Source: Actinotalea soli (GTDB lineage Bacteria; Actinomycetota; Actinomycetes; Actinomycetales; Cellulomonadaceae). Taken from it: 64,000 nt of DNA. Within the stretch, counting starts at the first letter, position 1; every line of letters begins with the position of its first letter. The DNA lies in NCBI RefSeq assembly GCF_017565425.1, contig NZ_JAGEMK010000001.1, positions 186,001 to 250,000 on the forward strand. The letters are read 5' to 3'. A program made the position numbers and the translations under genes. The notes below the pieces were generated by a model that was not told the origin of the DNA, did no database searches, and saw only the letters and a list, made by a program, of their open reading frames with translations. Of this stretch, positions 44,142 to 60,981 are shown one piece after another.

Positions 44142-44470
44142 TCGCCGTGATCGGCCTGCTCGTGGGCGCCCTGGTCGGGGTGTTCCTCGAGCCCACCGTG
44201 CCCTCGGCGCTGCAGCCCTACCTCCCCATCGCCGTGGTGGCAGCGCTGGACGCTCTCTTCGGTGGCCTGCGCGCCCTCCTCGACGGCATGTTCGACGACC
44301 GCGTCTTCCTCGTCTCGTTCCTGTCGAACGTCGTCGTCGCTGCGCTGATCGTCTTCCTCGGGGACCAGCTCGGCGTCGGCACCCAGCTCTCGACCGCCGT
44401 GGTCGTCGTCCTCGGCATCCGCATCTTCTCCAACGCCGCAGCGATCCGCCGTCACCTCTTCCGGGCATGA
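44138..44470 (+). CDS. DUF1290 small basic membrane protein (Sbp-like)
   Basis: 110 aa with three hydrophobic helices and the conserved ALDALFGGLRALLDGMFDDRVFLVSFLSNVV segment of the Sbp/DUF1290 family. Found between two DUF881 genes in actinobacteria and next to division genes in Firmicutes. Tight overlap on the left and a 1-bp gap on the right show it belongs to the operon. Molecular function unknown. Confidence 0.93.
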   Translation: MIAVIGLLVGALVGVFLEPTVPSALQPYLPIAVVAALDALFGGLRALLDGMFDDRVFLVSFLSNVVVAALIVFLGDQLGVGTQLSTAVVVVLGIRIFSNAAAIRRHLFRA

Positions 44471-44471
44471 C

Positions 44472-45254: not shown

Positions 45255-45336
45255 GGACCTGCCGTCCGGGGCGCGCTCCGCATAGGCTGTGCGCCACGAG
45301 CGTGTGGGAGCTGCCCAACGACGCGAAGGAGGAACG

Positions 45337-45825: not shown

Positions 45826-46646
45826 GCCCGGTCGGCGGCCCGGCCCGGGCCGCGCGACCGGTCCGGAGCGACCCGAGGAACGGTGGGCCGGAACGGGCCG
45901 AGCCGAGGGACGACGCCCCGCGCGGGACGGACGTCCCCTCCGAGCCATGGCCCCAGGGGGTCTCTCGCGAGCCGTCCATGCGCATCTCGGACGTGCTGTC
46001 CTCCCTGTGCGACGACTTCCCCGCGGTGACACCGTCCAAGCTCCGCTTCCTCGAGGAGCAGGGACTCGTCGAGCCCCGGCGCACCCCGGGGGGCTACCGG
46101 CAGTACAGCCCCGCAGACGTCGAGCGCCTGCGGTTCGTGCTGCGCCAGCAGCGCGACCGGTACCTGCCGCTGCGGGTGATCGGTGAGCAGCTGGCCGCCC
46201 TCGACGCGGGGGTCGAGGAGGAGCCCGTGCTGCCCCGGCTCGCGGCGGCCGACGGCGAGCGCACGGGGTCGGCGGTGCCGGCCGGGTACTCGGTGGCGAG
46301 CCTCACGGCGGAGACAGGTGTCGAGCCCGAGGTGATCGCCCAGCTCCTCGAGGCTGGCCTGCTGCGCGAGTCGCGTCCCGGCCACCTCGACGCCTGGGCC
46401 CGGGACGTGATCGTGGCCGCTGCGGCCCTGACCGAGCACGGGGTCGACCTGCGCCACCTCCGGTCCTTCCGTGCGGCTGCTGATCGGCAGGTCTCGGTCG
46501 TCGAGCAGATCGTCGCGCCGTTGCGCAGTCAGCGCGCGGTCGCGGCCGAGGCGCATGCCAGCGCCCTCGCCGGAGAGGTCGGCGAGCTGTGCGGGCGTCT
46601 GCACACCGCGCTGGTGCGTTCGGGTGTGGCCGGCCTGACGCCGTGA
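45822..46646 (+). CDS. ftsR: MerR-family cell-division regulator FtsR
   Basis: 274 aa. A Pro/Arg-rich N-terminus of about 50 residues precedes the winged HTH (MRISDVLSSLCDDFPAVTPSKLRFLEEQGLV then RTPGGYRQYS) and a C-terminal helical domain. It corresponds to Rv1828 and C. glutamicum FtsR, an activator of ftsZ transcription, always next to garA/odhI. GTG 45822 overlaps the garA stop; the internal ATG 45978 at MRISDV is an alternative start lacking the extension. Confidence 0.9.
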   Translation: MSPVGGPARAARPVRSDPRNGGPERAEPRDDAPRGTDVPSEPWPQGVSREPSMRISDVLSSLCDDFPAVTPSKLRFLEEQGLVEPRRTPGGYRQYSPADVERLRFVLRQQRDRYLPLRVIGEQLAALDAGVEEEPVLPRLAAADGERTGSAVPAGYSVASLTAETGVEPEVIAQLLEAGLLRESRPGHLDAWARDVIVAAAALTEHGVDLRHLRSFRAAADRQVSVVEQIVAPLRSQRAVAAEAHASALAGEVGELCGRLHTALVRSGVAGLTP

Positions 46647-46748
46647 GCACGGCCGGCGGTCGTTGCCGCCCGCGGCCCTCGACCGGCGACGCGCCGCGCC
46701 GTCCGCCCTCAGCCTGCCGGGGCTGCAGGCCCGTCGTAGCGTGGGTCC

Positions 46749-47264
46749 ATGGGTGACGAGGAACTCGTGCAGCTCGACGTCCTGGGGGTCCGGCGGCAGG
46801 CGCCGAGCGACCAGGTCGTGGTGCTGCTCCTCGACCTGGACGGTCATCGGCTGCTGCCGATCGTGGTCGGCGTCGCCGAGGGCTCGTCGATCGCTGCAGC
46901 CCAGTCGGGGATCACGGCGCCGCGACCCATGACCCATGACCTCCTGGTCTCCGTCGTCGAGGCCTCCGGACGGTCGGTGGCCCGGGCCGAGGTCGTGTCC
47001 TTGGTCGACGGCGTCTTCCACGCCGCGCTGGTGCTCGACAACGGCGTCCGCGTCGACTCCAGGGCCTCGGACGCGATCGCGGTCGCGGTGCGCACCGGCA
47101 GCCCCGTGGTGTGCGCTCCCGCCGTCCTCGAGGAGGCAGGCCTCGAGGTGGAGCACCGGGAGCCGGAGTCCGAGGTGCAGGAGTTCCGAGCCTTCCTGGA
47201 CACGGTCAACGCCGACGACTTCGGCTCGGAGGAGGACGATCCGGGGTCCCGTCCGCCGTCGTGA
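46749..47264 (+). CDS. Bifunctional nuclease family protein (DUF151)
   Basis: 171 aa with the BFN/DUF151 core: VVVLLLDLDGHRLLPIVVGVAEGSSIAAAQ, RPMTHDLL and DSRASDAIAVAVRTGSPV. Plant relatives have weak RNase/DNase activity; the bacterial role is unclear. TAGCGT at 46737-46742 ends 6 nt before ATG 46749, so the mRNA is probably leaderless and independent of the garA operon. Position corresponds to Rv1829. Confidence 0.93.
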   Translation: MGDEELVQLDVLGVRRQAPSDQVVVLLLDLDGHRLLPIVVGVAEGSSIAAAQSGITAPRPMTHDLLVSVVEASGRSVARAEVVSLVDGVFHAALVLDNGVRVDSRASDAIAVAVRTGSPVVCAPAVLEEAGLEVEHREPESEVQEFRAFLDTVNADDFGSEEDDPGSRPPS

Positions 47265-47287
47265 GGACCTGGGCGGGCGGGCTCCAC

Positions 47288-47383
47288 CTTGAGGTTCAGG
47301 TCAAGATTGAGACACGCCTAGACGACACGCCGGTCGTTCGTCAGCGTGGCGTCGTTGACGGCCCCCATCGGCAGGCCTAGCGT
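47288..47383 (+). promoter_or_regulatory. Promoter and HAIR-like inverted repeat before the second merR
   Basis: TTGACG (47355-47360), a 17-bp spacer and TAGCGT (47378-47383) form a near-consensus sigma-70 promoter with start near 47390. Upstream, CTTGA (47288-47292) and TCAAG (47301-47305) are inverted with 8 bp between, resembling the CTTGAGT/ACTCAAG half-sites bound by the MerR-family repressor HspR. It may be an autoregulatory site of the downstream MerR protein. Confidence 0.65.
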
Positions 47384-47455
47384 GACTGTTGAGCATCCAG
47401 AGGCCCCCGGAACGACGGTGTGGATCCCATCGAGGATGGACCGAGGGGAGTGGCC

Positions 47456-48043
47456 GTGAGCGGCACCGGAGAGACGATCGAGGAGTCGGTCGGCGTCCCG
47501 CAGCGCGCGCAGGGCCTCCTGTTCGGCGACGAGCTGCCTGACCTGGACACGACGACGGGCTACCGCGGCCCGACGGCGTGCGGAGCGGCAGGCATCACCT
47601 ATCGTCAGCTCGACTACTGGGCACGGACGGGACTCGTCGAGCCGACCATCCGGCCTGCCTCGGGCTCGGGCACCCACCGTCTGTACAGCTTTCGCGACAT
47701 CCTCGTGCTCAAGGTGGTCAAGCGACTCCTCGACACCGGGGTGTCGTTGCAGCAGATCCGCACCGCGGTCGGCCACCTGCGCGAGAGGGGCGTCGACGAC
47801 CTCGCGCAGATCACGCTGATGAGTGATGGTGCGAGCGTCTACGAGTGCACCTCGGCCGACGAGGTCATCGACCTGGTCCAGGGCGGGCAAGGTGTCTTCG
47901 GCATCGCCGTCGGTCGCGTCTGGCGCGAGGTGGAGGGCACCCTCGCCGCGCTGCCGACCGAGCGGGCCGACGAGGACCAGGACGGTCCCGCCTCCGTCTC
48001 CGACGAGCTCGCCCGACGCCGGCGGTCACGCACCGCAGGTTGA
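47456..48043 (+). CDS. MerR-family regulator (Rv1830/McdR-like)
   Basis: 195 aa. The HTH region GPTACGAAGITYRQLDYWARTGLVEPTIRPASGSGTHRLYSFRDILVLKVVKRLLDTG begins about residue 39 and matches the Rv1830 type; only the HTH and a short C-terminal helical part are present. Mycobacterial relatives influence cell division. GTG 47456 follows GAGGGGAG. It closes the Rv1822-Rv1830-like cluster; pyc follows 101 bp downstream in the same direction. Confidence 0.9.
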   Translation: MSGTGETIEESVGVPQRAQGLLFGDELPDLDTTTGYRGPTACGAAGITYRQLDYWARTGLVEPTIRPASGSGTHRLYSFRDILVLKVVKRLLDTGVSLQQIRTAVGHLRERGVDDLAQITLMSDGASVYECTSADEVIDLVQGGQGVFGIAVGRVWREVEGTLAALPTERADEDQDGPASVSDELARRRRSRTAG

Positions 48044-48144
48044 TCGCCCCGCCCGTGTCCCGCCGGTCCGGAGCGCGGGACGGGCAGGCCGCACGACACC
48101 GTTGCCGCTACGGTGCTGGTGCCCCCTACCCGATGAGGTGAGAC

Positions 48145-51100
48145 GTGTTCTCGAAGGTCCTGGTCGCCAACCGCGCTGAGATCGCCGTGCGAGGTTTCCG
48201 CGCTGCGTACGAGCTGGGAGCTCGCACCGTCGCGGTCTTCCCCCACGAGGACCGGAACTCGGAGCATCGCCTCAAGGCCGACGAGGCCTACCCGATCGGC
48301 CAGCCCGGGCACCCGGTACGCGCCTACCTCGACATCCAGGAGATCCTGCGTGTCGCCCGGGAGGCCGACGCCGACGCGATCTATCCCGGGTACGGCTTCC
48401 TCTCCGAGAACCCCGCCCTTGCCCGTGCGTGCGAGGAGGCGGGACTGACTTTCGTGGGCCCCCCCGCCGACGTCCTCGAGCTCGCCGGGAACAAGGTCCG
48501 GGCCCTCAAGGCCGCCCGTGAGGCCGGCATCCCGGTGCTGGCCTCGACCGAGCCGTCCTCCGACGTCGACACCCTTGTCGCAGCTGCCGAGGAGGTCGGC
48601 TTCCCGATCTTCGTCAAGGCCGTCGCCGGCGGCGGCGGCCGCGGGATGCGTCGGGTCGACACCCGCGAGGAGCTCCCCGACGCCCTCGCGGCCGCGATGC
48701 GCGAGGCGGACAGCGCCTTCGGGGACCCGACCGTGTTCCTCGAGCAGGCCGTGCTGCGCCCGCGCCACATCGAGGTCCAGATCCTCGCGGACAGCACCGG
48801 CGAGGTCGTGCACCTCTTCGAGCGCGACTGCTCGGTCCAGCGGCGTCACCAGAAGGTCATCGAGATCGCCCCGGCGCCGAACCTCGACCCCGCGATCCGA
48901 GAGGCCCTGTGCCGCGACGCCGTGGCCTTCGCGCGCAGCATCGGCTACGTCAATGCGGGCACCGTCGAGTTCCTGGTCGACACCGTGGGCGAGCGGGCCG
49001 GCAAGCACGTCTTCATCGAGATGAACCCGCGCATCCAGGTCGAGCACACGGTCACCGAGGAGGTGACGGACATCGACCTGGTCTCCTCGCAGCTGCGGAT
49101 CGCCGCGGGGGAGTCCCTCGCGGACCTCGGCATCACGCAGGACGCCGTACGGGTCAACGGTGCGGCCATGCAGACCCGCATCACCACCGAGGACCCGGGC
49201 AACGGCTTCCGCCCGGACACCGGCCGCATCGTCGCCTACCGTTCGCCGGGTGGCGCGGGGGTGCGTCTGGACGGCGCCACGGCGAGTGCCGGGGCGGAGA
49301 TCAGCGGCCACTTCGACTCGATGCTGGTCAAGCTCACCTGCCGGGGGCGTGACTTCCCGACAGCGGCCCGGCGAGCCCGTCGAGCCCTCGCCGAGTTCCG
49401 CATCCGTGGGATCAGGACCAACATCCCGTTCCTCCAGGCCGTCCTCGACGACCCGGCCTTCGTGGCCGGGGATCTCTCGACCTCGTTCATCGACGAGCGG
49501 CCCGAGCTGCTCGCAGCCAAGGAGAGCGCGGACCGCGGGACCAAGCTCCTGGCCTACCTGGGCGACGTGACCGTCAACCGCCCGCACGGCGCCCCTCAAG
49601 GCATCCTGCTGCCGCAGGCGAAGCTCCCGGACGTCGACCTCGCCGCGGAGCCCGCACCCGGGAGCCGCCAGCGCCTGCTCGAGCTGGGCCCGGACGGGTT
49701 CGCCAGGGCGCTGCGCGAGCAGACAGCCGTGGCGGTCACCGACACGACGTTCCGCGACGCCCACCAGTCGTTGCTCGCGACCCGCGTCCGCACCTACGAC
49801 CTCGCCGCGGTGGCGCCGCACGTCGCGCGCACCACCGGCGGTCTGCTGTCGGTCGAGGCCTGGGGCGGTGCTACGTACGACGTCGCGCTGCGCTTCCTGG
49901 GGGAGGACCCGTGGGACCGCCTCGCCACCTTGCGCGAGTCCCTCCCGAACGTCGCCATCCAGATGCTCCTGCGCGGTCGCAACACGGTCGGCTACACGCC
50001 GTACCCGACCGAGGTCACCCAGGCGTTCGTCCGCGAGGCCACGGCCACCGGGATCGACATCTTCCGCATCTTCGACGCCCTGAACGACGTCGAGCAGATG
50101 CGCCCGGCGATCCAGGCGGTCCGGGAGGGCGGCACGGCGGTGGCGGAGGTCGCGCTCTGCTACACGGGCAATCTGACCGACCCGGGGGAGAACCTCTACA
50201 CCCTCGACTACTACCTCGGGCTCGCCGAGCGGATCGTCGAGGCGGGTGCGCACGTGCTCGCGATCAAGGACATGGCGGGGCTGCTCCGCCCGGCCGCCGC
50301 CCACACCCTCGTGACGGCGCTGCGCGAGCGGTTCGACCTGCCGGTCCACCTGCACACCCACGACACCGCCGGGGGCCAGCTCGCGACCCTGCTCGCCGCG
50401 GTGGACGCCGGGGTGGACGCGGTGGACACCGCAAGCGCCGCGATGGCGGGCACCACGAGCCAACCGTCGATGTCAGCCCTCGTCGCAGCCCTCGAGCACA
50501 CCGAGCGGGACACCGGCCTGAGCCTGCGGGCGGTGTGCGACCTCGAGCCGTACTGGGAGGCCGTCCGCCGGATCTACAAGCCCTTCGAGTCCGGGCTGCC
50601 CGGTCCCACGGGGCGCGTCTACGACCACGAGATCCCCGGCGGTCAGCTCTCGAACCTGCGCCAGCAGGCCATCGCACTGGGCCTGGGCGACCGTTTCGAG
50701 GACATCGAGGCCATGTACGCCGCTGCCGACCGGCTGCTGGGCCGACTGGTGAAGGTCACGCCCTCGAGCAAGGTCGTGGGGGACCTCGCCCTGCACCTCG
50801 TGGCCCGTGGGGCGGACCCTGACCACTTCGCCCGGGAGCCTCAGGAGTTCGACATCCCTGACTCGGTCATCGGGTTCCTCGGTGGCGAGCTCGGTGACCC
50901 GCCCGGAGGGTGGCCCGAGCCGTTCCGCAGCCGTGCGCTCGAGGGTCGCCCCCCGCACCGCGAGGTCGCGACGCTCACCAACGAGGACCACCAGGACCTG
51001 GGCGCGGACTCGGCGACGCGACGCGACCGGCTCAACCACCTCCTGTTCCCCGCACCGACCAAGGAGCTCGAGCAGGTCCGGGCCAGCTTCGGGGACGTCA

Positions 51101-51543
51101 GCGTCCTCGACACGGCGCGCTACCTGTACGGCATGTTCCCGGACACCGAGGTCGAGGTCGAGCTCGAGCGCGGGGTGCGCCTGCTCGTGGGGCTCGAGGC
51201 CGTCGGCGAGCCTGACGAGCGTGGGATGCGCTCGGTGATGTTCACCCTCAACGGTCAGATCCGCCCGCTGCAGGTTCGCGACCGAGCCGTCGAGGTCGAT
51301 CAGGCGACCGCCGAGAAGGCCGATCCCGGTACCCCGGGACAGATCGCGGCGCCCTTCGCCGGGGCCGTGACCCCCGTCGTCCAGGAGGGGCAGAAGGTCG
51401 AGGCGGGGCAGGCGGTGGCGACGATCGAGGCCATGAAGATGGAGGCGTCGATCACCACCCCGGTCGCCGGCACGGTCCAGCGCCTGGCCATCGGTGCGGT
51501 CCAGCAGCTCGAGGGCGGGGACCTCGTCGTCGTCATCGCGTGA
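48145..51543 (+). CDS. pyc: Pyruvate carboxylase
   Basis: 1132 aa biotin enzyme making oxaloacetate from pyruvate, bicarbonate and ATP. The biotin carboxylase/ATP-grasp domain (about 1-450) has YPGYGFLSEN, KAVAGGGGRGMR and EMNPRIQVEHTVTE. The carboxyltransferase TIM barrel (about 530-800) has DTTFRDAHQSLLATRVRTYD and the metal-binding HLHTHDTAG. The C-terminal biotinyl domain has EAMKMEASI with the biotinylated Lys. Start GTG 48145 follows GATGAGGTGAG. It feeds the TCA cycle and, with pckG, gluconeogenesis. A strong terminator follows directly. Confidence 0.97.
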   Translation: MFSKVLVANRAEIAVRGFRAAYELGARTVAVFPHEDRNSEHRLKADEAYPIGQPGHPVRAYLDIQEILRVAREADADAIYPGYGFLSENPALARACEEAGLTFVGPPADVLELAGNKVRALKAAREAGIPVLASTEPSSDVDTLVAAAEEVGFPIFVKAVAGGGGRGMRRVDTREELPDALAAAMREADSAFGDPTVFLEQAVLRPRHIEVQILADSTGEVVHLFERDCSVQRRHQKVIEIAPAPNLDPAIREALCRDAVAFARSIGYVNAGTVEFLVDTVGERAGKHVFIEMNPRIQVEHTVTEEVTDIDLVSSQLRIAAGESLADLGITQDAVRVNGAAMQTRITTEDPGNGFRPDTGRIVAYRSPGGAGVRLDGATASAGAEISGHFDSMLVKLTCRGRDFPTAARRARRALAEFRIRGIRTNIPFLQAVLDDPAFVAGDLSTSFIDERPELLAAKESADRGTKLLAYLGDVTVNRPHGAPQGILLPQAKLPDVDLAAEPAPGSRQRLLELGPDGFARALREQTAVAVTDTTFRDAHQSLLATRVRTYDLAAVAPHVARTTGGLLSVEAWGGATYDVALRFLGEDPWDRLATLRESLPNVAIQMLLRGRNTVGYTPYPTEVTQAFVREATATGIDIFRIFDALNDVEQMRPAIQAVREGGTAVAEVALCYTGNLTDPGENLYTLDYYLGLAERIVEAGAHVLAIKDMAGLLRPAAAHTLVTALRERFDLPVHLHTHDTAGGQLATLLAAVDAGVDAVDTASAAMAGTTSQPSMSALVAALEHTERDTGLSLRAVCDLEPYWEAVRRIYKPFESGLPGPTGRVYDHEIPGGQLSNLRQQAIALGLGDRFEDIEAMYAAADRLLGRLVKVTPSSKVVGDLALHLVARGADPDHFAREPQEFDIPDSVIGFLGGELGDPPGGWPEPFRSRALEGRPPHREVATLTNEDHQDLGADSATRRDRLNHLLFPAPTKELEQVRASFGDVSVLDTARYLYGMFPDTEVEVELERGVRLLVGLEAVGEPDERGMRSVMFTLNGQIRPLQVRDRAVEVDQATAEKADPGTPGQIAAPFAGAVTPVVQEGQKVEAGQAVATIEAMKMEASITTPVAGTVQRLAIGAVQQLEGGDLVVVIA

Positions 51544-51547
51544 GGTC

Positions 51548-51594
51548 GACGACGCGCCCGTCGTCTCTCGGCCGAGGGTGACGGGCGTGTCGTC
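51548..51594 (+). terminator. Strong terminator after pyc
   Basis: GACGACGCGCCCGTC (51548-51562) pairs with GACGGGCGTGTCGTC (51580-51594): 15 pairs with one G-T wobble, and the loop itself can form CTCGG/CCGAG. It begins 4 bp after the pyc stop. Confidence 0.8.
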
Positions 51595-51690
51595 GCTCGA
51601 GAAGCATCGACCGCGAGCCGCGCGTACGGTCGTGTCAGGACGGGTCGAGACCCCTCGCCCGACCGTTCACGCCGCACCCTGGGAGGCCTG

Positions 51691-51861
51691 ATGACCCACG
51701 AGAGCACCGACCCCGCACCGCGCGAGGGGACCGAACCGACGCCCCCCGATCACGACCAGATCCTGCGCCTCGAGGTCGACGAGACGGTGCCGCCGCGACC
51801 CGAGGAGGAGGTCGCCGACGTGACACGCAGCGAGCCGGGGGAGTGGACCGCGTCGCCCTGA
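51691..51861 (+). CDS. Small acidic hypothetical protein, 56 aa
   Basis: ATG 51691 follows GGGAGG at good spacing and encodes MTHESTDPAPREGTEPTPP and on to EWTASP. The product is very acidic and Pro/Glu-rich, likely disordered, without Cys or hydrophobic segments. TACGGT near 51628 is a possible -10. The gene is bounded by two strong hairpin terminators (after pyc and at 51882-51926), which supports it as its own transcription unit. Function unknown. Confidence 0.6.
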   Translation: MTHESTDPAPREGTEPTPPDHDQILRLEVDETVPPRPEEEVADVTRSEPGEWTASP

Positions 51862-51881
51862 GGGCAGGATGACGTAGCCGT

Positions 51882-51926
51882 CCTCGGCGGTGGCCCCCAG
51901 GTGCGACCTGCGGGCCACCGCCGAGG
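51882..51926. terminator. Bidirectional terminator, perfect 15-bp stem
   Basis: CCTCGGCGGTGGCCC (51882-51896) and GGGCCACCGCCGAGG (51912-51926) form a perfect 15-bp inverted repeat. It lies between the stops of the rightward small ORF and the leftward gene ending at 51928 and so can serve both. Confidence 0.85.
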
Positions 51927-51927
51927 C

Positions 51928-52275
51928 TCATCCGCGCATCGGCGGCTTCGCCTCGTCGGACTCGGTGGGCGGGATGTCCGGACCGGGGGCGGTCGCCGGA
52001 GAGACCGACGAACCGGCAGAGGGCGCCGGGGAGAGCTCAGGGGCGAGAGCGGACGGATCGCCCCCGCTCGGCTCTGCGCCTGCTTCGAGCTCGCTCGCCC
52101 GGGTCTGCAGCACCTGAAGTGCCGGCACCCGGCGCGCGTGCGCTTCCTCGTACTCGATCACGACCCGAAGCTGCGCCAGGTCCAGGGACCGGATGCGGTG
52201 AGCGAGCCCGGTGATGGGCAGATGGTCGTAGTCGGGGAACGGGAGCTCCTCACGGGTAGGACCGTGATCCGTCAT
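51928..52275 (-). CDS. Conserved actinobacterial protein (DUF8129-like)
   Basis: 115 aa. The N-terminal half, ELPFPDYDHLPITGLAHRIRSLDLAQLRVVIEYEEAHARRVPALQVL, is a compact helical module common in actinobacteria, followed by a Pro/Ser/Ala-rich tail of about 55 residues. No enzymatic motif. It is followed by a bidirectional terminator. Function unknown; possibly a lipid-droplet or partner-binding module, but the sequence does not show this. Confidence 0.8.
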   Translation of the reverse strand: MTDHGPTREELPFPDYDHLPITGLAHRIRSLDLAQLRVVIEYEEAHARRVPALQVLQTRASELEAGAEPSGGDPSALAPELSPAPSAGSSVSPATAPGPDIPPTESDEAKPPMRG

Positions 52276-52353
52276 GGTGCCTCCAGGTCTCGACGTCGTC
52301 GGACCCTTCGACCGTAGGTCGAGGCGGGCGGGCTCGCACGGCGGACCGAAGGA

Positions 52354-52620
52354 TCAGCTGGTCGGCTGCTCGTCCTGGCCCGCGGCACGGTGGGCCGCGT
52401 AGTCCTTCCGCAGGCCCGCCAGGCCCCAGAGAGCCACCGCGCCGCCCAGGGCGATCATCGCGCCGTTGGCCCAGGTGCCGACACCGTCGGTGAAGGCGCT
52501 GACCTGGTATCCGATCACCACCAGGCCGACGATCACCGGCAACGAGGACGACCACCACCAGCGCGCATCAAGAGATCGTGAGGCGGGGGTGGGGGAGTCC
52601 GAGGAGTGCGGCTCAGGCAT
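52354..52620 (-). CDS. Small two-helix membrane protein
   Basis: 88 aa. Hydrophobic helices lie at about 25-43 and 50-68 with a short loop (SAFTDGVGTWANG), and both ends are hydrophilic. GATGCT lies 6 nt before ATG 52620, a possible leaderless promoter. It lies upstream of the DUF8129-like gene on the same strand. I do not recognise a family. Confidence 0.75.
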   Translation of the reverse strand: MPEPHSSDSPTPASRSLDARWWWSSSLPVIVGLVVIGYQVSAFTDGVGTWANGAMIALGGAVALWGLAGLRKDYAAHRAAGQDEQPTS

Positions 52621-52663
52621 GAGGTCAGCATCTCACGCCCGCACCATCGGGCAGGATGAGGCC

Positions 52664-53179
52664 GTGGCGACCATCGACGAGCTCAGCGAGGACGACTGGG
52701 CCAGGCTGGCGGCGATCCGCCTCCGTGCTCTCGAGCAGGATCAGGCGGCTTTCGGGTCGTCCCTCGAGCGCGAGCGGGGCTTCGGCGAGAGGCACTGGCG
52801 CATGAGACTGCGGTCCAGCGTCTGGCTGGTCCTCGGGGAGCCCGGCCGGGATGTCGGCGTGGTCTGTCTGATCGAGGAGCCGGGGGCGCCCAGGGACGAG
52901 CGGCACGTCGTGAGCCTGTGGGTCGACCCCGAGCGGCGCGGACGGGGGTACGGCCACGCCCTCCTCGACGCGGCGACGGCACGAGCCGCTGAGCTCGGCG
53001 GGGTGCGGCTCACCCTCTGGGCGATCGACGCGAACCACGCCGCGACCGCCCTCTACCGTCGTGCGGGCTTCGTGGCGACAGGAGTCACCATGCCGTTGCC
53101 CCGCGACCCACGGCTCACCGAGCACCGCTGGGAGAAGCCCGTCGGGTCGGAGACCCTGGGCGCGCCGCCGCCACCCTGA
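52664..53179 (+). CDS. GNAT-family N-acetyltransferase
   Basis: 171 aa with the GNAT fold. Motif A is VSLWVDPERRGRGYGHALLDAATARA (acetyl-CoA pyrophosphate loop RRGRGYG), and motif B is LTLWAIDANHAATALYRRAGFVATG. The substrate is unknown. GTG 52664 is chosen because CAGGAT (52652-52657) ends 6 nt upstream, giving MATIDELSEDDWARLAAIRLRAL, the normal GNAT beginning. It is the last gene before the dif-like site. Confidence 0.9.
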   Translation: MATIDELSEDDWARLAAIRLRALEQDQAAFGSSLERERGFGERHWRMRLRSSVWLVLGEPGRDVGVVCLIEEPGAPRDERHVVSLWVDPERRGRGYGHALLDAATARAAELGGVRLTLWAIDANHAATALYRRAGFVATGVTMPLPRDPRLTEHRWEKPVGSETLGAPPPP

Positions 53180-53261
53180 GGCCCGACCTACGCTGGTCGG
53201 GGAGACCGCATGTCACGGTCGACGAGGTCGATGAGCCACAGATGCGGCGCAGGGGCCCCCG

Positions 53262-53289
53262 TAATGACATAATGTCCCTTATCGGCGAT
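53262..53289. other. dif: dif-like XerCD chromosome dimer resolution site
   Basis: A 28-bp AT-rich site in a GC-rich gap. On the plus strand the left arm is TAATGACATAA (53262-53272), the centre TGTCCC (53273-53278) and the right arm TTATCGGCGAT (53279-53289). Read on the minus strand it gives CGCCGATAA, a 6-bp centre ending ACA, then TTATGTCA. This matches the actinobacterial dif consensus as I remember it (CCGATAA then ACATTATGTCA), with mismatches mainly at the outer ends. The 11-6-11 layout is right for XerC/XerD. It probably marks the replication terminus. Confidence 0.82.
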
Positions 53290-53380
53290 AGGTGGTCGGT
53301 CCGGGAGTGCCTGGACCTCGGGGCCTCACGTCGGCGGCGTGCCCTAGCGTGGGAGCGCCCAGCGTCGACCAGGAGGTCCC

Positions 53381-53884
53381 ATGTCCAGCCACGCACCGTC
53401 CAGCGACCTCGAGCGGCTCATCGCGGAGGTCGCCGAGCAGCAGCGAGAGCTGGTGCTCGACCACATGGACTACGACGACGCTTGGCGCCTCGGAACGCTG
53501 CTCATCGAGCTGGCTCGGGAACGCGACCTGCCCGTGGTGGTCGACGTGCGCCGTCACGGCCAGCAGCTGTTCCACTCGGCCCTGCCGGGCACGACGCCTG
53601 ACAACGACACCTGGGTCGAGCGCAAGGTCCGGGCGGTGGACCGCTTCGGTGCGCCGTCCTTCCTGCTGGGCCTGCAGGCCAAGGCCAAGGGCCACTCCTT
53701 CGCCGACGCGACAGGCCTGTCGATCCAGGAGTACGCCGGCCACGGCGGCTGCTTCCCGCTCACGGTGGCCGGGGTCGGCCCCGTCGGCACGGTGACCGTC
53801 TCGGGCCTCCCCCAGGCCGAGGACCACGCCCTGGTGGTCGAAGGGCTGCGCATCCTGGTCGCGGAGCAGCGGGCCACCAGGTAG
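53381..53884 (+). CDS. UPF0303 (heme-degrading-domain/DUF336-like) protein
   Basis: 167 aa. ELVLDHMDYDDAWRLGTLLIELARERDLPVVVDVRRHGQQLFHSALPGTTPDND and the HGGCFPLTV segment are characteristic of UPF0303, a DUF336/HbpS-like fold. Some relatives bind heme or cobalamin, but activity here is unknown. AGGAGG precedes ATG 53381, and TAGCGT (53345-53350) is the -10. It lies immediately right of the dif-like site. Confidence 0.88.
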   Translation: MSSHAPSSDLERLIAEVAEQQRELVLDHMDYDDAWRLGTLLIELARERDLPVVVDVRRHGQQLFHSALPGTTPDNDTWVERKVRAVDRFGAPSFLLGLQAKAKGHSFADATGLSIQEYAGHGGCFPLTVAGVGPVGTVTVSGLPQAEDHALVVEGLRILVAEQRATR

Positions 53885-53915
53885 GGCAGGCTTGCTCCGA
53901 TCCCGAGGAGGTCCT

Positions 53916-55988
53916 GTGCCCGACACGCGTCGGCCGTCGGCGGACGGCGCCCTGCTCCGCCGCATCTGGGCGCTGCTGTCCCCGTACCGCGCCACGCTCG
54001 TGCTCGTGGCGGTGACGATCGTCGTCGGCGCCGGGCTCGGCATCGTCACTCCCTTCCTCACGCAGGCAGTCTTCGACGAGGCGCTCTTCCCGGCGGACGG
54101 CACCGGGGTCGACCTCGAGCTCCTCGGCTGGCTCGTCGCCGCGATGATCGCCGTGCCGCTGCTCACCGCGGCGATCGGCATCGGGCAGACGTACCTGACC
54201 ACCCGGGTCGGCAACGAGGCCATGGCCGACCTCCGTGGCCGGCTCTTCGAGCACCTCGAGCGGATGGAGCTCGCCTTCTTCACCGCGACGCGGACAGGGT
54301 CCATCCAGTCCCGGCTCGCGAACGACGTCGGCGGTGTCCGCTCGGTCCTGACCACGACGGCCTCGAGCATCCTCTCCAACGCGGTCACCGTGATCGCGTC
54401 GTTGATCGCGATGCTCCTGCTCTCCTGGCAGCTGACCCTCATCGCGATCGCCCTCATGCCCGTCTTCCTGGTGCTCCAGCGCCGGGTCGGCGCGCGTCGA
54501 CAGGTGCTGGCGCGCAAGACCCAGGAGTCCCTCTCGGACATGACGGCCATCACCGAGGAGGCGCTGAGCGTCTCGGGGGTGCTGCTGTCGAAGGTCTTCA
54601 ACAGGGCGGACGCCGAGATCGCTCGCTACGACGAGGAGAACAAGCGCCAGGTCAGCCTCCAGGTGCGCCAGGCGATGGTGGGACAGGGGTTCTTCGGCAT
54701 GGTCACGGCCTTCATGGCCGTGACCCCGGCCCTCGTCTACCTCGCGTCGGGCTACATGATCGTCGGCGGTTCGGAGGTCTCGGCCGGGACGCTGGTGGCG
54801 TTCTCGACCCTCCAGGCGCGCCTGCTCATGCCCCTGGTCCAGCTGCTCCGGGTGGCCCTGGACGTGCAGACCTCCCTGGCCCTGTTCCGACGGATCTTCG
54901 AGTACCTCGACCTCGTCCCGGCGATCCAGGACCGCCCCGGCGCCGAGGACCTGCCCGAGGTGCGCGGCGAGGTCGAGCTCACGGACGTCTGGTTCGCGTA
55001 CCCGCCTCCCACGCGGCTCAGGACCCCCGACCCGTCCCCCGGCGACGGCATGGGTGGGCACGGTGGCGGGCGAGGCATGTGGGGCGCGATGGGGATGGTC
55101 GCGCAGCCCGGGACTCGTGGGGGTGGAGCCGCCGTCGTCCGGGACCGGCCTCCTGGCGCCGCTCCCCCGCCGGCCCGGCCCGGTTCCTCGGTCGACGACG
55201 GCGCGGGTGCCGCGCCCGAGCCCGTCTGGGCCGTGCGCGGGGTGTCCCTCCACGTCCCCGCGGGATCCCTCGCGGCCTTCGTCGGACCGTCGGGAGCCGG
55301 CAAGACGACCCTGACGTACCTGGTCCCCCGCCTCTACGAGGTCGACCGCGGCGCGGTGCTCCTCGACGGGCACGACGTGCGCGACCTGCGCCTGGGCTCC
55401 CTGGCGGACGCCGTCGGCATGGTCACCCAGGACCCGTACCTGTTCCACGCGAGCATCGCGGACAACCTGCGGTACGCCAGACCCGAGGCCACCGACGCGG
55501 AGCTCGTCGAGGCCGCACGGGCAGCCAACATCCACGACCGCATCGCGGCCTTCGCCGACGGCTACGACACCACGGTGGGTGAGCGGGGATACCGCCTGTC
55601 CGGCGGGGAGAAGCAGCGCCTGGCGATCGCCCGGGTTCTGCTCAAGGACCCCCGCGTGCTGATCCTCGACGAGGCGACCTCAGCCCTCGACTCGAGCTCG
55701 GAGAGGCTCGTGCAGCGCGCCCTGACGCGGGTGATGGCCGGCCGCACCACCATCGCGATCGCCCACCGGCTCTCGACCATCCAGCACGCCGACGTCATCT
55801 TCGTGGTCGACGCAGGTCAGGTCGTCGAGCAGGGCACCCATCCCGAGCTCCTCGAGATCGGTGGCCTGTACGCGCGTCTGCACGCCGAGCAGTTCGGCGG
55901 TGGTCGGGTCGAGGCACGCTTCGCCGACGGCGTGATGTTCACCGACGGGGTGGTCCTCAACCAGGCCGGACAGGGCGGGGCGTCCTGA
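53916..55988 (+). CDS. ABC exporter (fused TMD-NBD) with a 70-residue insertion
   Basis: 690 aa half-transporter. Six helices lie in residues about 25-340. The NBD (about 350-650) has GPSGAGKTTLTYLVPRLYEVD (Walker A near 458), LSGGEKQRLAIARVLL, VLILDEATSALD and IAHRLSTI. The NBD's first strand (VELTDVWFAYP) is separated from the next (VWAVRGVSLHVPAG) by about 70 Gly/Pro/Met-rich residues (364-433), normally a few residues. GTG 53916 follows GAGGAG. It likely homodimerises to export a lipid or drug; the substrate is unknown. Confidence 0.92.
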   Translation: MPDTRRPSADGALLRRIWALLSPYRATLVLVAVTIVVGAGLGIVTPFLTQAVFDEALFPADGTGVDLELLGWLVAAMIAVPLLTAAIGIGQTYLTTRVGNEAMADLRGRLFEHLERMELAFFTATRTGSIQSRLANDVGGVRSVLTTTASSILSNAVTVIASLIAMLLLSWQLTLIAIALMPVFLVLQRRVGARRQVLARKTQESLSDMTAITEEALSVSGVLLSKVFNRADAEIARYDEENKRQVSLQVRQAMVGQGFFGMVTAFMAVTPALVYLASGYMIVGGSEVSAGTLVAFSTLQARLLMPLVQLLRVALDVQTSLALFRRIFEYLDLVPAIQDRPGAEDLPEVRGEVELTDVWFAYPPPTRLRTPDPSPGDGMGGHGGGRGMWGAMGMVAQPGTRGGGAAVVRDRPPGAAPPPARPGSSVDDGAGAAPEPVWAVRGVSLHVPAGSLAAFVGPSGAGKTTLTYLVPRLYEVDRGAVLLDGHDVRDLRLGSLADAVGMVTQDPYLFHASIADNLRYARPEATDAELVEAARAANIHDRIAAFADGYDTTVGERGYRLSGGEKQRLAIARVLLKDPRVLILDEATSALDSSSERLVQRALTRVMAGRTTIAIAHRLSTIQHADVIFVVDAGQVVEQGTHPELLEIGGLYARLHAEQFGGGRVEARFADGVMFTDGVVLNQAGQGGAS

Positions 55989-56089
55989 GCAGTTGCGGCC
56001 CGACCCTGCTCACGGGACCGTAGTGGCGCACCGGCGGCACGTCGCCCGCCCGCTGCGGTCCATGTTCACGGTACCTTCACGGGTCGCCT

Positions 56090-56115
56090 GGAACACCGGC
56101 CCCCGGGAGCGCGTT
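56090..56115 (+). promoter_or_regulatory. SigR/SigH-type promoter upstream of rbpA
   Basis: GGAAC (56090-56094), an 18-bp spacer and GTT (56113-56115) match the SigR/SigH consensus (GGAAT/C, N18, GTT). The start would be near 56123, leaving a leader of about 96 nt. In Streptomyces rbpA is a known SigR-regulated gene, so disulfide stress control is expected here. Confidence 0.7.
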
Positions 56116-56218
56116 GTGCCAGGTGGAACGACAGATCGACTGACGTACCGCATGACAGAGACATTCGAGCCGAGCATCCCTCGTCGCTCGTCCCAGCGGC
56201 CAGAACGGAGGCCACACG

Positions 56219-56563
56219 ATGGCTGACCGATCCTTGCGCGGCATGCGCATCGGCGCGAACAGCATGGAGTCCGACCAGGGGGTCGAGTTCGCCCCGCGGT
56301 TCCAGGCGTACTACGACTGCCCCGACGGGCACACGATCATCCTCCCCTTCGCCGCCGAGGCGGACGTCCCCGTCGTCTGGGAGTGCCGGTGCGGCAAGGA
56401 GGCGCTGCTCCGTGACGCCAGCAAGCCTGAGCCCAAGGCCGGCAAGCCGCCGCGCACCCACTGGGACATGCTGCTCGAGCGCAGGACCGTGGGCGAGCTC
56501 GAGGACCTCCTCGCCGAGCGGCTCGAGCTGCTCCGGGCCGGGAAGCTCCGCCGCTCGGCCTGA
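56219..56563 (+). CDS. rbpA: RNA polymerase-binding protein RbpA
   Basis: 114 aa actinobacterial transcription factor that binds sigma and RNA polymerase and stabilises open complexes. The N-terminal tail MADRSLRGMRIGANSME, the zinc/beta core with YDCPDGH and CRCGKEALL, the PRTHWDMLLERRT basic linker and the C-terminal sigma-interaction helix (GELEDLLAERLELLRAG) are all present. ATG 56219 follows CGGAGG. It has its own SigR-type promoter and converges on the mannosyltransferase gene, as Rv2050 does on Rv2051c. Confidence 0.97.
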   Translation: MADRSLRGMRIGANSMESDQGVEFAPRFQAYYDCPDGHTIILPFAAEADVPVVWECRCGKEALLRDASKPEPKAGKPPRTHWDMLLERRTVGELEDLLAERLELLRAGKLRRSA

Positions 56564-56583
56564 GCCCGACCCATGCACGTGAG

Positions 56584-57393
56584 CTACGGCCGTCGCCCTC
56601 GGGCGGCGGTCGTCGTCGTGCGCCTGAGCTGCGCCCACCGGTGCTGGACGCCCCACACGCAGACCCGCCAGAACGCCTCGAGAACGATCTGGCGGCTCAT
56701 CTTGGACAGGCCCTGAGTCCGTTCGACGAAACGGATCGGCACCTCACGCACCTCTCCCCCGTGCCGGACCACGCGCCAGGCCATGTCGACCTGGAAGCAG
56801 TAGCCCTGCGAGGCGACCTCGTCGAGGGGCAGAGCCCGCAGCGCCGACGCCCGGTAGGCACGGAACCCAGCCGTCGCGTCGCGGAGCGGAAGGCCGAGGA
56901 CCAGTCGGGTGAAGGAGTTGCCGCCGCGGGAGAGCAGCACCCGCCGCCGGGGCCAGTTCTCGACCGACCCGCCGGGCGTCCACCGCGACCCCAGCACCAG
57001 GTCGGGCCCGTGCAGGTCGTCAGCAGCGAGGGCCGACAGCAGACGCGGGAGGTCCTCGGGCTGGTGCGAGCCGTCCGCGTCCATCTCGACGAGCACCTCG
57101 TACCCGCGGGTCAGCCCCCAGCCGAAGCCCTCGACGTACGCCGAGCCCAGGCCGTGCTTGCCGGTCCGGTGCAGCACCTGGACCTGAGGGTCCTCGGTCG
57201 CCAGGTCGTCCGCGATCCGGCCGGTGCCGTCCGGGCTGGCGTCGTCCACCACCAGGACGTCGGCGGCCGGCACAGCCAGGCGGAGCCGGCCGAGGGTGCC
57301 CGGCAGGGTCGTGGCCTCGTCGTAGGTGGGGATGACGACCAGGACGCGTGGAGCGACGGCGCGGCCCCCGGTAGCGGAAGGCTCAGCCCTCAC
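56584..57393 (-). CDS. Polyprenol-phosphate mannosyltransferase (Ppm1-type GT2 domain)
   Basis: 269 aa GT2 enzyme transferring mannose from GDP-mannose to polyprenyl phosphate on the cytoplasmic face, supplying mannose for lipoglycans and glycoproteins. Motifs are VVIPTYDEATTLPGTL, VVDDASPDGTG, VEMDADGSHQPEDLP (metal-binding DAD), GNSFTRLVLGLPLRDATAGFR and RFVERTQGLSKMS. GTG 57393 is preferred, with GGAGAGGG at 9 nt; GTG 57414 would add seven residues. It overlaps the lnt stop by 11 bp. In M. tuberculosis these two are fused as Ppm1; here they are separate. Confidence 0.95.
   Translation of the reverse strand: MRAEPSATGGRAVAPRVLVVIPTYDEATTLPGTLGRLRLAVPAADVLVVDDASPDGTGRIADDLATEDPQVQVLHRTGKHGLGSAYVEGFGWGLTRGYEVLVEMDADGSHQPEDLPRLLSALAADDLHGPDLVLGSRWTPGGSVENWPRRRVLLSRGGNSFTRLVLGLPLRDATAGFRAYRASALRALPLDEVASQGYCFQVDMAWRVVRHGGEVREVPIRFVERTQGLSKMSRQIVLEAFWRVCVWGVQHRWAQLRRTTTTAARGRRP
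56590..56609. terminator. Possible terminator hairpin for rbpA
   Basis: CCGTCGCCC (56590-56598) pairs with GGGCGGCGG (56601-56609) with one wobble and a 2-nt gap. It overlaps the last codons of the convergent mannosyltransferase gene, 27 bp past the rbpA stop. No U-tract. Confidence 0.4.
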
Positions 57394-58951
57394 CCGGAGC
57401 GACCCTCTCCGCACGTCGCACGCGCACTGCTCCGGCCATCCCCGCCACCGTGACGACCACGGCCAAGCCCCGCAGGGCCCAGCTCAGGTGGCTGCCGTAG
57501 CGCGTCGCCGGAGTGAGCTCGCTGCGCAGCGGGACCGAGGCGACCATCTGCTCGGCGGTGAACAACCCGGTCTCCTCGCGGACCAGCCCGGTCGGTGAGA
57601 TCACGGCGCTCACGCCCACGGTCGAGATCTGCACCGTCGCGCGACCGTGCTCGATCGCGCGCAGCCGGGACATCGCGAGCTGCTGGGTGGACTCGTCGGT
57701 GCGTCCGAAGGTCGCGTTGTTCGTCGGGATCACGAGGACCTCGCCCCCCTCCTGCACCGCCTCCCGGATGAGCACGTCGTAGGCGACCTCGAAGCAGATG
57801 CCCAGGGCGAGGGTGACGTCCCGCTCGAGGCGAGGCACGGCGACGGCCATGGCACCCACCTCCTCGCCGCCGATCATGTCCGTCCGCACCCTGTCGACGG
57901 CGTCGGAGAACTGGCGAGCGATCTCCCGCATCGGGATGTACTCGGCGAAGGGCGCCGGGCGCCGCTTGGCGTACGAGGCCCCAGCGCCGTCCTCGGGGTC
58001 CCAGAGGAGCGCCGTGTTGAGCCGTCCGCCCGTCTCGGGGAAGTTGTCGGTCCCCACCAGGATCGGGGCCTCGACCGCACGGGCAGCCTCGCTGATGGCC
58101 TCGGCCGCGTCCGCGTCGGCGCGGGGGTCGATGTCCGAGCCGTTCTCGGGCCAGAGCACCACGTCGAGCTCCCCCGGCTCGACCTGGTCGAGCAGGGCGT
58201 GGGTCCCTGACACGTGGTTGTCGAGCACCTCTCGGGCCTGCTGGAAGGAGTCCAGCCCGCGGTCGGGGACGTTGCCCTGCACGGCCCCGACGGCGAGGGT
58301 GCCCTCCTGCGCGCGGCTGTCCAGGGGGACCAGGAGCCCGCCGATCACGAGCACGACAGCCAGGACCAGGTAGCCGCTGGCACTGCCCACGTCGATGCGC
58401 CGCAACGAGATCAGGGCCAGGGCCACCACCGCCCCGACGACGGCGACCGCGGCGGAGACGAGGGTCGCCCCACCCAGCCAGGCGAGCGCCCCGAGCGGTG
58501 AGTCTGCCTGGGAGAAGGCCAGCCGTCCCCACGGGAAGCCGCCGAAGGGCCACACCGAGCGGGCCTCCTCGAACCCGACCCACAGGATCGCGAAGACCGG
58601 GACCTGCAGGCGGGCCCGCTGCCAGGTGACGGCCCCCCTCCGGGCCCACGTCCAGGCGGCACCGAAGGCCGCGACGAAGCCCGCCTCGACCACCGACAGG
58701 GCCAGCCAGGGCACAGCGCCCACGGCGCCCTCGGTCCAGGTGATGTGCGGCAGGAAGAAGGCGAGCCCGAACACCAGCCCGACCAGCGTGTTCCACCAGG
58801 CGCGGTCCCGGCCCAGGGCGACGAACAGCAGGGCCATGGCGAGGAAGGTCAGCGGCCACCAGCCGAGGCCGGGGAACCCTGCGTCGAGCACGAGCCCGCC
58901 GACGACGGCGAGGAGGAGGGTCGTCCTGCGGCGGGGTGGGGCGAACGGCAC
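57383..58951 (-). CDS. lnt: Apolipoprotein N-acyltransferase
   Basis: 522 aa. About six to eight N-terminal membrane helices (to residue about 200) precede an extracytoplasmic nitrilase domain with the catalytic Glu in LWPENGSD, Lys in YAKRRPAPFAEYIP and Cys in LGICFEVAYDVLI. A C-terminal helix closes the protein. It N-acylates lipoproteins such as the iron-binding lipoprotein of this window. GTG 58951 is chosen because TAGGCT (58963-58958, minus) ends 6 nt before it, while GTG 58957 would abut the -10 box. Coupled to the mannosyltransferase. Confidence 0.94.
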   Translation of the reverse strand: MPFAPPRRRTTLLLAVVGGLVLDAGFPGLGWWPLTFLAMALLFVALGRDRAWWNTLVGLVFGLAFFLPHITWTEGAVGAVPWLALSVVEAGFVAAFGAAWTWARRGAVTWQRARLQVPVFAILWVGFEEARSVWPFGGFPWGRLAFSQADSPLGALAWLGGATLVSAAVAVVGAVVALALISLRRIDVGSASGYLVLAVVLVIGGLLVPLDSRAQEGTLAVGAVQGNVPDRGLDSFQQAREVLDNHVSGTHALLDQVEPGELDVVLWPENGSDIDPRADADAAEAISEAARAVEAPILVGTDNFPETGGRLNTALLWDPEDGAGASYAKRRPAPFAEYIPMREIARQFSDAVDRVRTDMIGGEEVGAMAVAVPRLERDVTLALGICFEVAYDVLIREAVQEGGEVLVIPTNNATFGRTDESTQQLAMSRLRAIEHGRATVQISTVGVSAVISPTGLVREETGLFTAEQMVASVPLRSELTPATRYGSHLSWALRGLAVVVTVAGMAGAVRVRRAERVAPGEG

Positions 58952-58963
58952 CGGCACAGCCTA

Positions 58964-59297
58964 ACCGCGGTTCTCGGACCGACCGACTGGCCCGCGTGTC
59001 CTTCGGACCGGACGACGGCGTCCCCGCAGGGGCGTCGCCCGTTGTCTACTGAACACGCGGGCCAAGCCGGTGCCCTCCGCCTGGCGGTTGCCCGTCAGGG
59101 CCCGGTCGGGGTGCGGCCCAGCTGGCGCACAACCCGCATCGACCGCGGGGAGGAACAGGACGAACTTACCGAGTCCCCAGCGCGAGTCAAGGCGGTGTTC
59201 CTCCAGGTCAGCGCCATCGACGCAGGTCAGCGGCGACTGCTCCGATGGGGTGAGCCGGAGGGCGACGGCGTGTCGCGCGGCGTGTCGGGAACGTGCC
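58964..59297 (-). ncRNA. Structured intergenic region with own promoter (possible sRNA or lnt leader)
   Basis: This 334-bp gap has no credible ORF. On the minus strand TTGACT (59190-59185), a 16-bp spacer and TAAGTT (59168-59163) form a good sigma-70 promoter with start near 59156. Downstream, TGGCCCGCGTGT (58988-58999) and ACACGCGGGCCA (59053-59064) form a perfect 12-bp stem enclosing a second stem (GACGACGG 59011-59018 with CCGTTGTC 59039-59046, then CCCC with GGGG). I see no RNase P, tmRNA or SRP RNA signature. It may be an unassigned small RNA or the lnt leader. Confidence 0.4.
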
Positions 59298-60944
59298 TCA
59301 GGAGATGGCGTCGTGGAGCACGACACCCTCGCGCAAGGTTCGCACGCAGGTCGGGCGCGGCACGTCCGCACCCAGCACCGGCAGGAGCGGCGTACCAGCC
59401 CTCGCGTCGGTGCTCCAGGCCGAGACCCGCCCGTCCGGGACCTGCACCGCCAGGGACTCCACCTGCCACATCGCAAGGGTCGCAGGTGCTCCCAGACGGA
59501 TCTCCCCCGCTCCCGTGTGGTCCAGCCGGGCGGCACGCCAACCACCGCGGGTGTGGGCCCGGAAGGCGGCCCGTGCGGAGATCCGCTGGCTCGGCTCGTG
59601 ATGCTCGACGGCCCCGCGCACGGCCCCCCACGGGTCGAACGGGGTCACCGGGGCGTCCGAGCCGAAGGCGAGGGGCACCCCCGCGCCGGCGAGGTCCGCG
59701 AAAGGGTTGAGCGAGGCCGCCCGCGCCGGGCCCAGTCGCTGGGCGTACATCCCGGCGTCTCCGCCCCACGCGGTGTCGAAGGCGGGCTGTGCGCTGATCG
59801 TCAGCCCCAGCAGCACGAGGGTCCCGAGTGCCTGGGCGTCCACCATCTCGCCGTGCTCGATGCGGTGCCCCGCCGCCCGGACCCGGTCGAGGCCCTCGAC
59901 GTCGGCCGCCGCGCGGAAGCCCACCAGCACCTCGTCCATCGCCCGGTCGCCGATCACGTGGAAGGCCGCCTGCGAACCCGCGCGTGTGACGGCTGCCACG
60001 TGGTTGGCGACCTGCTCGGCGCTCAGCTGCAGGGTGCCCGCGGCCGTCGCCGGCCCCGTGTCGGCGTACGGAGCACGCAGCGCTGCGGTGCGCGAGCCGA
60101 TCGAGCCGTCGACGTTGAGGTCCCCGCCGATCCCGGTCAGCCCCGGGATCACCTCGAGGAGGGCACGGGCGTCGTCTGCGGTCTCGCAGAGCTCACCGCG
60201 GTAGCCGATGACCGCCGCGAGACCACTCGCCGGGTCAGCGGTCATCGCGAGCAGACCCGCGAGGCCCTCCCGCGTGTCGATGTAGGGGCCGCTGTGCTCG
60301 TGCAGCGCGGCGATCCCCTCACGGGCCGCGGCGACCAGTGTCGACCGGTAGAGCTCGGCACGGTCTCCGTCGGACACGTCACGGGCAGCGATCCTGGCCC
60401 GGTGGTGCGCGTCGGCGACGACGAGCCCGGTCGGGGACCAGCCCGGCAGGTCCGCGCAGCCCGAGATCTCCGCGAAGGAGCTGGAGACCACAGCCGAGTG
60501 GACGTCCACCCGGGCGAGGTAGACGGGGGCGCCGTCGGTGGCGTTGTCGATCTCCTCGCGCGAGGGCGGCCGCCCCTCGGGCCAGGCGGTCTCGTCCCAG
60601 CCGTGGCCCAGGAGCGGGGCCCGGCGCCCGGCGGCTCGGGCGGCCCGGGCCGCAGCGGCGATCCGGTCCAGCGCCTGGGCCAGGCTCATCACGCCCGCGG
60701 CGACCGAGAGGTCGACGCCGCTGAGCGCGAGTCCCGTCTCGAGCACGTGGGCGTGGGCGTCGACGAAGGCGGGGGTCACCAGCGCGCCGTCGAGGTCGAC
60801 CACCTCGTCGGCGCCGTCCATGACGGTGTGGATCGTCTCCTCGCTGCCGAGCCAGGCGACCTGGCCGTCGGCGACGAGCAGTGCCTGGGCGAAGGGGTCC
60901 GTGCGGGAGTGGATGACGCCGTTGCGGTACAGGGTGGAGCTCAC
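59298..60944 (-). CDS. Amidohydrolase family protein (YtcJ-like)
   Basis: 548 aa metal-dependent hydrolase. The composite small beta domain (residues 1-50 and the C-terminus) surrounds a TIM barrel with VTPAFVDAHAHVLETG (metal HxH), HVIGDRAMDEVL, HRIEHGEMVD and FGSDAPVTPFDPW. The substrate is probably an amide or N-substituted compound but is unknown. GTG 60944 has TACGTT (60956-60951) 6 nt upstream, predicting a leaderless mRNA and fixing the start. The gap of 37 bp to the helicase stop contains this promoter. Confidence 0.9.
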   Translation of the reverse strand: MSSTLYRNGVIHSRTDPFAQALLVADGQVAWLGSEETIHTVMDGADEVVDLDGALVTPAFVDAHAHVLETGLALSGVDLSVAAGVMSLAQALDRIAAAARAARAAGRRAPLLGHGWDETAWPEGRPPSREEIDNATDGAPVYLARVDVHSAVVSSSFAEISGCADLPGWSPTGLVVADAHHRARIAARDVSDGDRAELYRSTLVAAAREGIAALHEHSGPYIDTREGLAGLLAMTADPASGLAAVIGYRGELCETADDARALLEVIPGLTGIGGDLNVDGSIGSRTAALRAPYADTGPATAAGTLQLSAEQVANHVAAVTRAGSQAAFHVIGDRAMDEVLVGFRAAADVEGLDRVRAAGHRIEHGEMVDAQALGTLVLLGLTISAQPAFDTAWGGDAGMYAQRLGPARAASLNPFADLAGAGVPLAFGSDAPVTPFDPWGAVRGAVEHHEPSQRISARAAFRAHTRGGWRAARLDHTGAGEIRLGAPATLAMWQVESLAVQVPDGRVSAWSTDARAGTPLLPVLGADVPRPTCVRTLREGVVLHDAIS

Positions 60945-60981
60945 GGCCCGAACGTAGCGCAGCGAGGCGCCCGCAGCAGCG

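Follow-up and report, generated by a model that had tools for sequence, protein, structure and literature searches.

The window analysed here, a stretch of 64,000 nucleotides, is C11:186001-250000 of a draft genome of 32 contigs and 3,633,886 bases (3.63 Mb). Profile scanning of 15 window proteins identified Der (EngA KH domain), a CDP-alcohol phosphatidyltransferase-like protein, a GarA/OdhI-like protein, FtsR, a BFN-domain protein, a MerR protein, pyruvate carboxylase, a GNAT protein, an HbpS-like protein, an ABC exporter, RbpA, a GT2 glycosyltransferase, Lnt, an amidohydrolase and a DSHCT helicase, the CDP-alcohol phosphatidyltransferase-like and OdhI matches scoring below the curated cut-offs. 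The local order proposed in an earlier note on this DNA (der, a gene cluster, the site, rbpA, ppm/lnt, helY) is thereby borne out. The features around which the argument is built are as follows.

223..1737, plus strand: der (EngA) GTPase (Pfam KH_dom-like and MMR_HSR1)
45289..48043, plus strand: garA/odhI-like gene, ftsR, BFN-domain gene and merR-type gene, from the profile scan
48145..51543, plus strand: pyruvate carboxylase, from the profile scan; left-flank marker in many relatives
52466..53179, plus strand: GNAT acetyltransferase, left neighbour of dif, from the profile scan; start codon uncertain
53262..53289, minus strand: predicted dif site of 28 bp, read on this strand as XerC arm, centre and XerD arm; called from sequence, genome uniqueness, conservation and polarity switch
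53279..53289, minus strand: putative XerC-binding arm, ATCGCCGATAA, assigned by analogy with published dif sites
53273..53278, minus strand: central 6 bp, GGGACA; ACA on the XerD side is usual in chromosomal sites and the 3 XerC-side bases vary
53262..53272, minus strand: putative XerD-binding arm, TTATGTCATTA, likewise assigned by analogy
53381..53884, plus strand: HbpS-like haem-degrading protein, right neighbour of dif, from the profile scan
56219..56563, plus strand: rbpA, from the profile scan; right-flank marker
56584..63828, minus strand: GT2 glycosyltransferase (ppm-like), lnt, amidohydrolase and DSHCT helicase (helY-like), from profiles, all leftward

On the plus strand, positions 53262-53289 read TAATGACATAATGTCCCTTATCGGCGAT; the minus strand reads ATCGCCGATAA-GGGACA-TTATGTCATTA, an 11-6-11 arrangement. 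The XerC/XerD layout described in the earlier note and the two cores it named (CCGATAA and ACATTATGTCA) are thus both present, on the minus strand. With up to 3 mismatches allowed, the 28-mer has one match in the 64-kb window and none in 100 shuffled versions; when the 16 arm bases were searched with a free 6-base centre at the same tolerance, there was again one match in the window, a count reached by 2 of 100 shuffles. An RNA element at this position was also considered and rejected: no Rfam match was found in 45000-60000 around the site, and RNA folding of 53175-53380 was only mildly better than that of shuffled sequences (z -2.17).

The site is also unique in its own genome, as had been anticipated. 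The 28-mer matches once at up to 3 mismatches across the draft (backwards control, 0), and the arms with a free centre give one perfect match plus three with 2-3 mismatches (backwards control, 1). A better dif match elsewhere would have spoken against the original call; 53262-53289 is the sole perfect-arm site of the draft genome. The second-best dif-like match, at G000:C32:138600-138621, has 2 arm mismatches and a centre without the chromosomal type, and is probably due to chance.

Of 59 genomes (this one and 58 relatives), 57 have a counterpart of the site. The 22-mer of the site matched in 43 of the 59 at up to 3 mismatches, vs none for the backwards control. The free-centre search then gave convincing sites, differing by 1-2 bases in the arms, in 14 of the other 16, the best row being chosen by eye; most of the 16 also had weaker matches, and two (G032 and G038) had a second match equal in mismatch number. 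No convincing site was found by this search in the remaining two, G045 and G050. Two rows were returned for G004, one of which was dropped before the 57 sites were counted; we rejected two dif copies in favour of one site at a contig break, because the two contig ends are near-identical around it. In the alignment of the 57 sites the five innermost bases of both arms are invariant (columns 53279-53283, together with 53285, in the XerC arm and 53268-53272 in the XerD arm), as is the G at 53274 in the centre, column 53276 being free; this conservation is inflated, because 43 of the 57 were picked by similarity to the site itself. A 27-base exact stretch covering the site and flank is also present in Actinotalea sp. 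C106 and Actinotalea ferrariae, the nearest named matches. In a class-wide search of 394 genomes, 172 contain the exact arms separated by 6 bases, and none contains the backwards control; 150 sites from 143 of the 172 were listed, and among these the centre ends in ACA, as it does here, in 119 of the 137 single-site genomes. PMC3025954 describes dif as predicted in 66 actinobacterial genomes and suggested for Frankia alni, and in PMC4789726 dif-flanked cassettes are in use in Mycobacterium smegmatis.

The neighbourhood is shared with many relatives. Thirty short loci, our own among them, were taken with at most 1.5 kb per side; in 16, counted by eye, homologues of pyruvate carboxylase, of the MerR gene, of the small genes at 51.7-52.3 kb or of rbpA lie next to the site. 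Eight longer loci of 19-20 kb were compared, one from the genus, one from the family and six from the order: in six of them the MerR/pyruvate carboxylase side and the rbpA side flank the site oppositely, so the interval between that block and rbpA is the usual dif location in these relatives. In the other two (G040 and G056) none of the MerR, pyruvate carboxylase or rbpA genes was found at the site. Two loci from the same family, L247 and L248 (G039 and G055), differ in which way dif faces with respect to the MerR and rbpA genes beside it, and in both rbpA is inverted compared with the window.

In relatives, the counterpart of the site lies about opposite dnaA on the chromosome. In all seven relatives of known length the dnaA-dif distance, as a fraction of the chromosome, is 0.492, 0.469, 0.500, 0.470, 0.486, 0.520 and 0.501, a second small contig not being counted in the length of one of them (G030); G008, G022 and G031 were excluded, having several contigs or lengths known only as rounded values. 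In our own draft, dnaA is on a separate contig, C22, and dif on C11. Relative to the dnaA gene, dif points in one direction in five genomes and in the opposite direction in five (G007, G018, G033, G030, G039, G037, G056, G022, G031 and G008), a split that agrees, as expected, with inversions across the terminus.

Gene orientation changes close to the site. The strand switch reported earlier (about 36 rightward and 14 leftward genes to the left, 3 and 5 to the right) is recovered by our own count of 34 and 9 to the left and 3 and 4 to the right, with strands called by a crude GC-position gene caller; all window genes beyond 56.6 kb are leftward. On the whole contig the gene-strand change point falls at 243.0 kb (235.8-251.3), 3.7 kb from dif at 239.3 kb. 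In the relative G007, where dif is at 1,746.2 kb, the best estimate is 1,761.8 kb and is poorly fixed (limits of 16 kb to 1,771.6 kb over the whole sample).

A much sharper signal comes from short polar motifs. According to PMC2830990 and PMC3022926, the octamers G(A/T/C)GGGGGA and (T/C)GGGGGAG are architecture-imparting sequences that were plotted to locate dif in Corynebacterium. Within the window they are distributed as follows.

1..53261: octamers left of dif, 32 on the plus strand and 4 on the minus strand
53290..64000: octamers right of dif, 0 on the plus strand and 12 on the minus strand

Over 800 kb of the contig the same octamers number 128 on the plus and 12 on the minus strand to the left of dif, and 35 and 322 to the right, so that 450 of 497 are oriented as expected. 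The nearest octamers lie at 238,590 to the left of dif and at 239,807 to its right; bootstrapping (2.5-97.5%) puts the switch within 238,291-239,957, a span of about 1.7 kb that includes dif at 239,262-239,289. In G007 the plus- and minus-strand counts are 164 and 25 on one side and 12 and 156 on the other (320 of 357 as expected), and the best split is dif itself, around which the sequence is octamer-free between 1,745,373 and 1,748,938; the bootstrap interval there, 1,746,391-1,747,559, is drawn from midpoints between octamers and begins about 130 bases beyond dif. When 8-mers occurring at least 40 times were scanned in 800 kb each of our contig and of G007, CGGGGGAG came first in polarity, with 189 leading-strand and 5 lagging-strand copies on our contig and 132 and 6 in G007. 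The switch in octamer polarity is the strongest line of support for dif. The E. coli KOPS, GGGNAGGG, was rejected as a polarity marker here: it is weakly polar, with a change point at 309.7 kb, and GGGGAGGG is its only clearly polar form on our contig.

GC skew gives a different position. The strict prediction of the earlier note, a skew turning point at 53 kb of the window, fails, because the raw skew turns about 98 kb, and the corrected skew about 58 kb, to the right of dif. On the contig the raw skew turns at 337.5 kb (bootstrap limits 292.5-337.5 kb), and third-position (GC3) skew corrected for gene orientation changes at 297 kb (285.6-350.9, limits that are too narrow in that codons were taken as independent); placing the corrected change at dif costs 6.3 log units of likelihood relative to the best point. 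The displacement is toward the helY side (G000:C11:285000-351000). Raw GC skew was accordingly rejected as a precise terminus marker, its change point lying about 98 kb from dif. The description of this site as the replication terminus therefore stands in the wide sense only, with the gene-strand and octamer switches at dif; skew turns 58-98 kb to the right, and the exact end of the forks may lie elsewhere.

One way to reconcile these signals is that dif is indeed here, but that replication ends some 60-100 kb to the right, the site marking the terminus of segregation and not the point at which forks meet. Besides the two skew estimates from our own contig, the best estimates from G007 fall on the same side of its dif (corrected, 1,821 kb with limits of 1,749.9-1,958.5; raw, 1,812.5 kb), and PMC3025954 suggests termination elsewhere than dif. 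However, the gene-strand and octamer change points sit at dif, the skew of our contig is weak (means of +0.008 and -0.012) and is influenced by gene orientation, and the raw bootstrap limits in G007 are so wide (452.5-1,957.5 kb) that dif lies inside them. Moreover, with an integrase-like gene at 342.8 kb of our contig, the local skew may be distorted by a recent insertion. We regard an offset end of replication as plausible, while leaning somewhat against it.

The enzymes that would act at such a site appear to be encoded in the genome. There are four PF00589 matches, one of which lies about 60 kb to the left of dif on C11 and passes the XerD cut-off (339.1 vs 329.6). A candidate XerC is on C26, with XerC as its best match at a score below the cut-off (281.5 vs 335.15). 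The FtsK gamma domain is found on C2 above its cut-off; the whole FtsK protein matched one FtsK model, below the curated cut-off (414.9 vs 1566). The expected mechanism follows established Xer systems such as that of E. coli, where dif, XerCD and FtsK act together with KOPS (GGGNAGGG). By that analogy, an odd number of crossovers would leave sister chromosomes joined as a dimer, and septal FtsK would pump the DNA along G-rich octamers that point to dif, guidance of FtsK by these octamers being presumed for this phylum. On meeting XerC and XerD, each bound to its arm, FtsK would halt and its gamma domain would turn XerD on; the two recombinases would then exchange strands across the 6-bp centre, yielding two monomers.

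Sites of the same type also occur in viral contigs. Arm-perfect sites were found there in 72 stretches (L162-L233) with the 6-base spacer, vs 17 with 7 bases, 17 with 5 bases and 20 for the backwards control; grouped by similarity of their surroundings, these become 52, 14, 11 and 12 groups, respectively. The enrichment at 6-bp spacing is thus about four-fold over 5 or 7, also after grouping. Among related viral contigs the arms are kept and the centre hexamer is often altered; of the 73 viral centres, few (12) have the ACA end that is usual on chromosomes. One site (L192:2634-2655, centre TGTACG) lies 27 bases ahead of an integrase-family gene on a virus-labelled contig of 187 kb, a possible case of an element at dif that carries its own integrase. 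PF00589 was matched in 6 of 50 site-bearing viral records (one per similarity group, for 50 of the 52 groups) vs 5 of 50 controls (from 54 control stretches), many of the records possibly being fragments. Missing integrases had been considered as a sign that the viral sites depend on XerCD; this is unsupported, because integrase content does not differ from that of the controls. L187 gave no BLAST match among phages and plasmids, and 7 kb of L199, compared with phages by distant BLAST, matched 397 records, the best 10 of which are DNA methylase genes. A limited search of the open-access literature found no report of Xer-exploiting elements in Actinobacteria in titles and abstract openings; the four actinobacterial terms sought are absent from the accessible text of the review PMC5357621, and "dif" as a word is absent from that of PMC5831693. 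We tentatively suggest that phages and other elements may exploit Xer recombination through sites with actinobacterial arms, either for integration, in the manner of IMEX elements, or for dimer resolution of plasmid-like phages.

More than one site is carried by 6 of the 394 class genomes, each of which has exactly one site ending in ACA, the 7 extra sites ending otherwise. In G416 two sites form direct repeats 7,010 bases apart (L308:5820-5841 and L308:12830-12851, at G416:C1:573820 and 580830) with different centres, TAGATC and TGCACA; the 7.0-kb spacing is as if an element lay beside dif. In G197, G079, G308, G430 and G280 the second or third arm-perfect site has a centre without the ACA end and is not on the contig of the ACA site, and these extra sites are possibly plasmid Xer sites.

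The question is then whether 53262-53289 might itself be an attachment site of an element that hijacks Xer recombination, of the IMEX type, or a plasmid-type Xer site, and not the chromosomal dif. Such sites seem to exist, to judge from the 72 viral stretches and the six class genomes with two or three sites. However, our own genome has one perfect-arm site, and the second that an IMEX element junction would be expected to supply is absent from the 32-contig draft. The centre here ends in ACA, like the great majority of the single-site genomes listed and like the one ACA site, not the 7 extra sites, of each multi-site genome. Moreover, conserved cellular genes flank the site, octamer polarity flips there, and no mobile-element protein was found among the 15 window proteins scanned by profile. 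An element-borne or plasmid-type site is therefore very improbable. That the sequence is a chance match without function is more improbable still, to a degree that we consider negligible, given that the backwards controls were empty in both the 59 and the 394 genomes, that sequence and position are conserved, and that polarity switches at the site.

We conclude that 53262-53289 is almost certainly the single chromosomal dif of this cell, a predicted recombination site. The original dif call is upheld by the uniqueness of the site, the counterparts in 57 of 59 genomes, the location opposite dnaA in relatives, the change in gene strand within 4 kb and in octamer polarity within about 1 kb, and the presence of genes for XerD, a XerC-like protein and FtsK gamma. 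It belongs to a known kind of site, of which it is an ordinary and well-preserved instance, and its biology is as expected. Its identification narrows the position of the segregation terminus to about 1 kb, and in this actinobacterium of about 73% GC octamer polarity locates that terminus far more sharply than GC skew does. In practice, such sites can be used for ordering draft contigs and for choosing natural Xer excision sites.

Among known systems, dif/XerCD/FtsK of E. coli resembles the present case in the expected mechanism and differs in its KOPS, GGGNAGGG, which is weakly polar here. In sequence the site resembles the dif of Frankia alni, which, as given in PMC3025954, shares the 11-6-11 layout and the arm cores GCCGATAA and TTATGTCA; 21 of 28 bases are identical, in keeping with the match to an actinobacterial dif consensus claimed in the earlier note. 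That source also places one dif per chromosome, near the shift in skew, which here lies 58-98 kb off. The two sites differ in the outer arm bases and in the first bases of the centre (GGGACA here, TGCACA in Frankia). With Corynebacterium aurimucosum, as described in PMC2830990, the likeness lies in the octamers: the same families are biased to the leading strand and were used there for finding dif, with 856 leading-strand and 61 lagging-strand copies over the whole chromosome, compared with 450 and 47 here in 800 kb of one contig.
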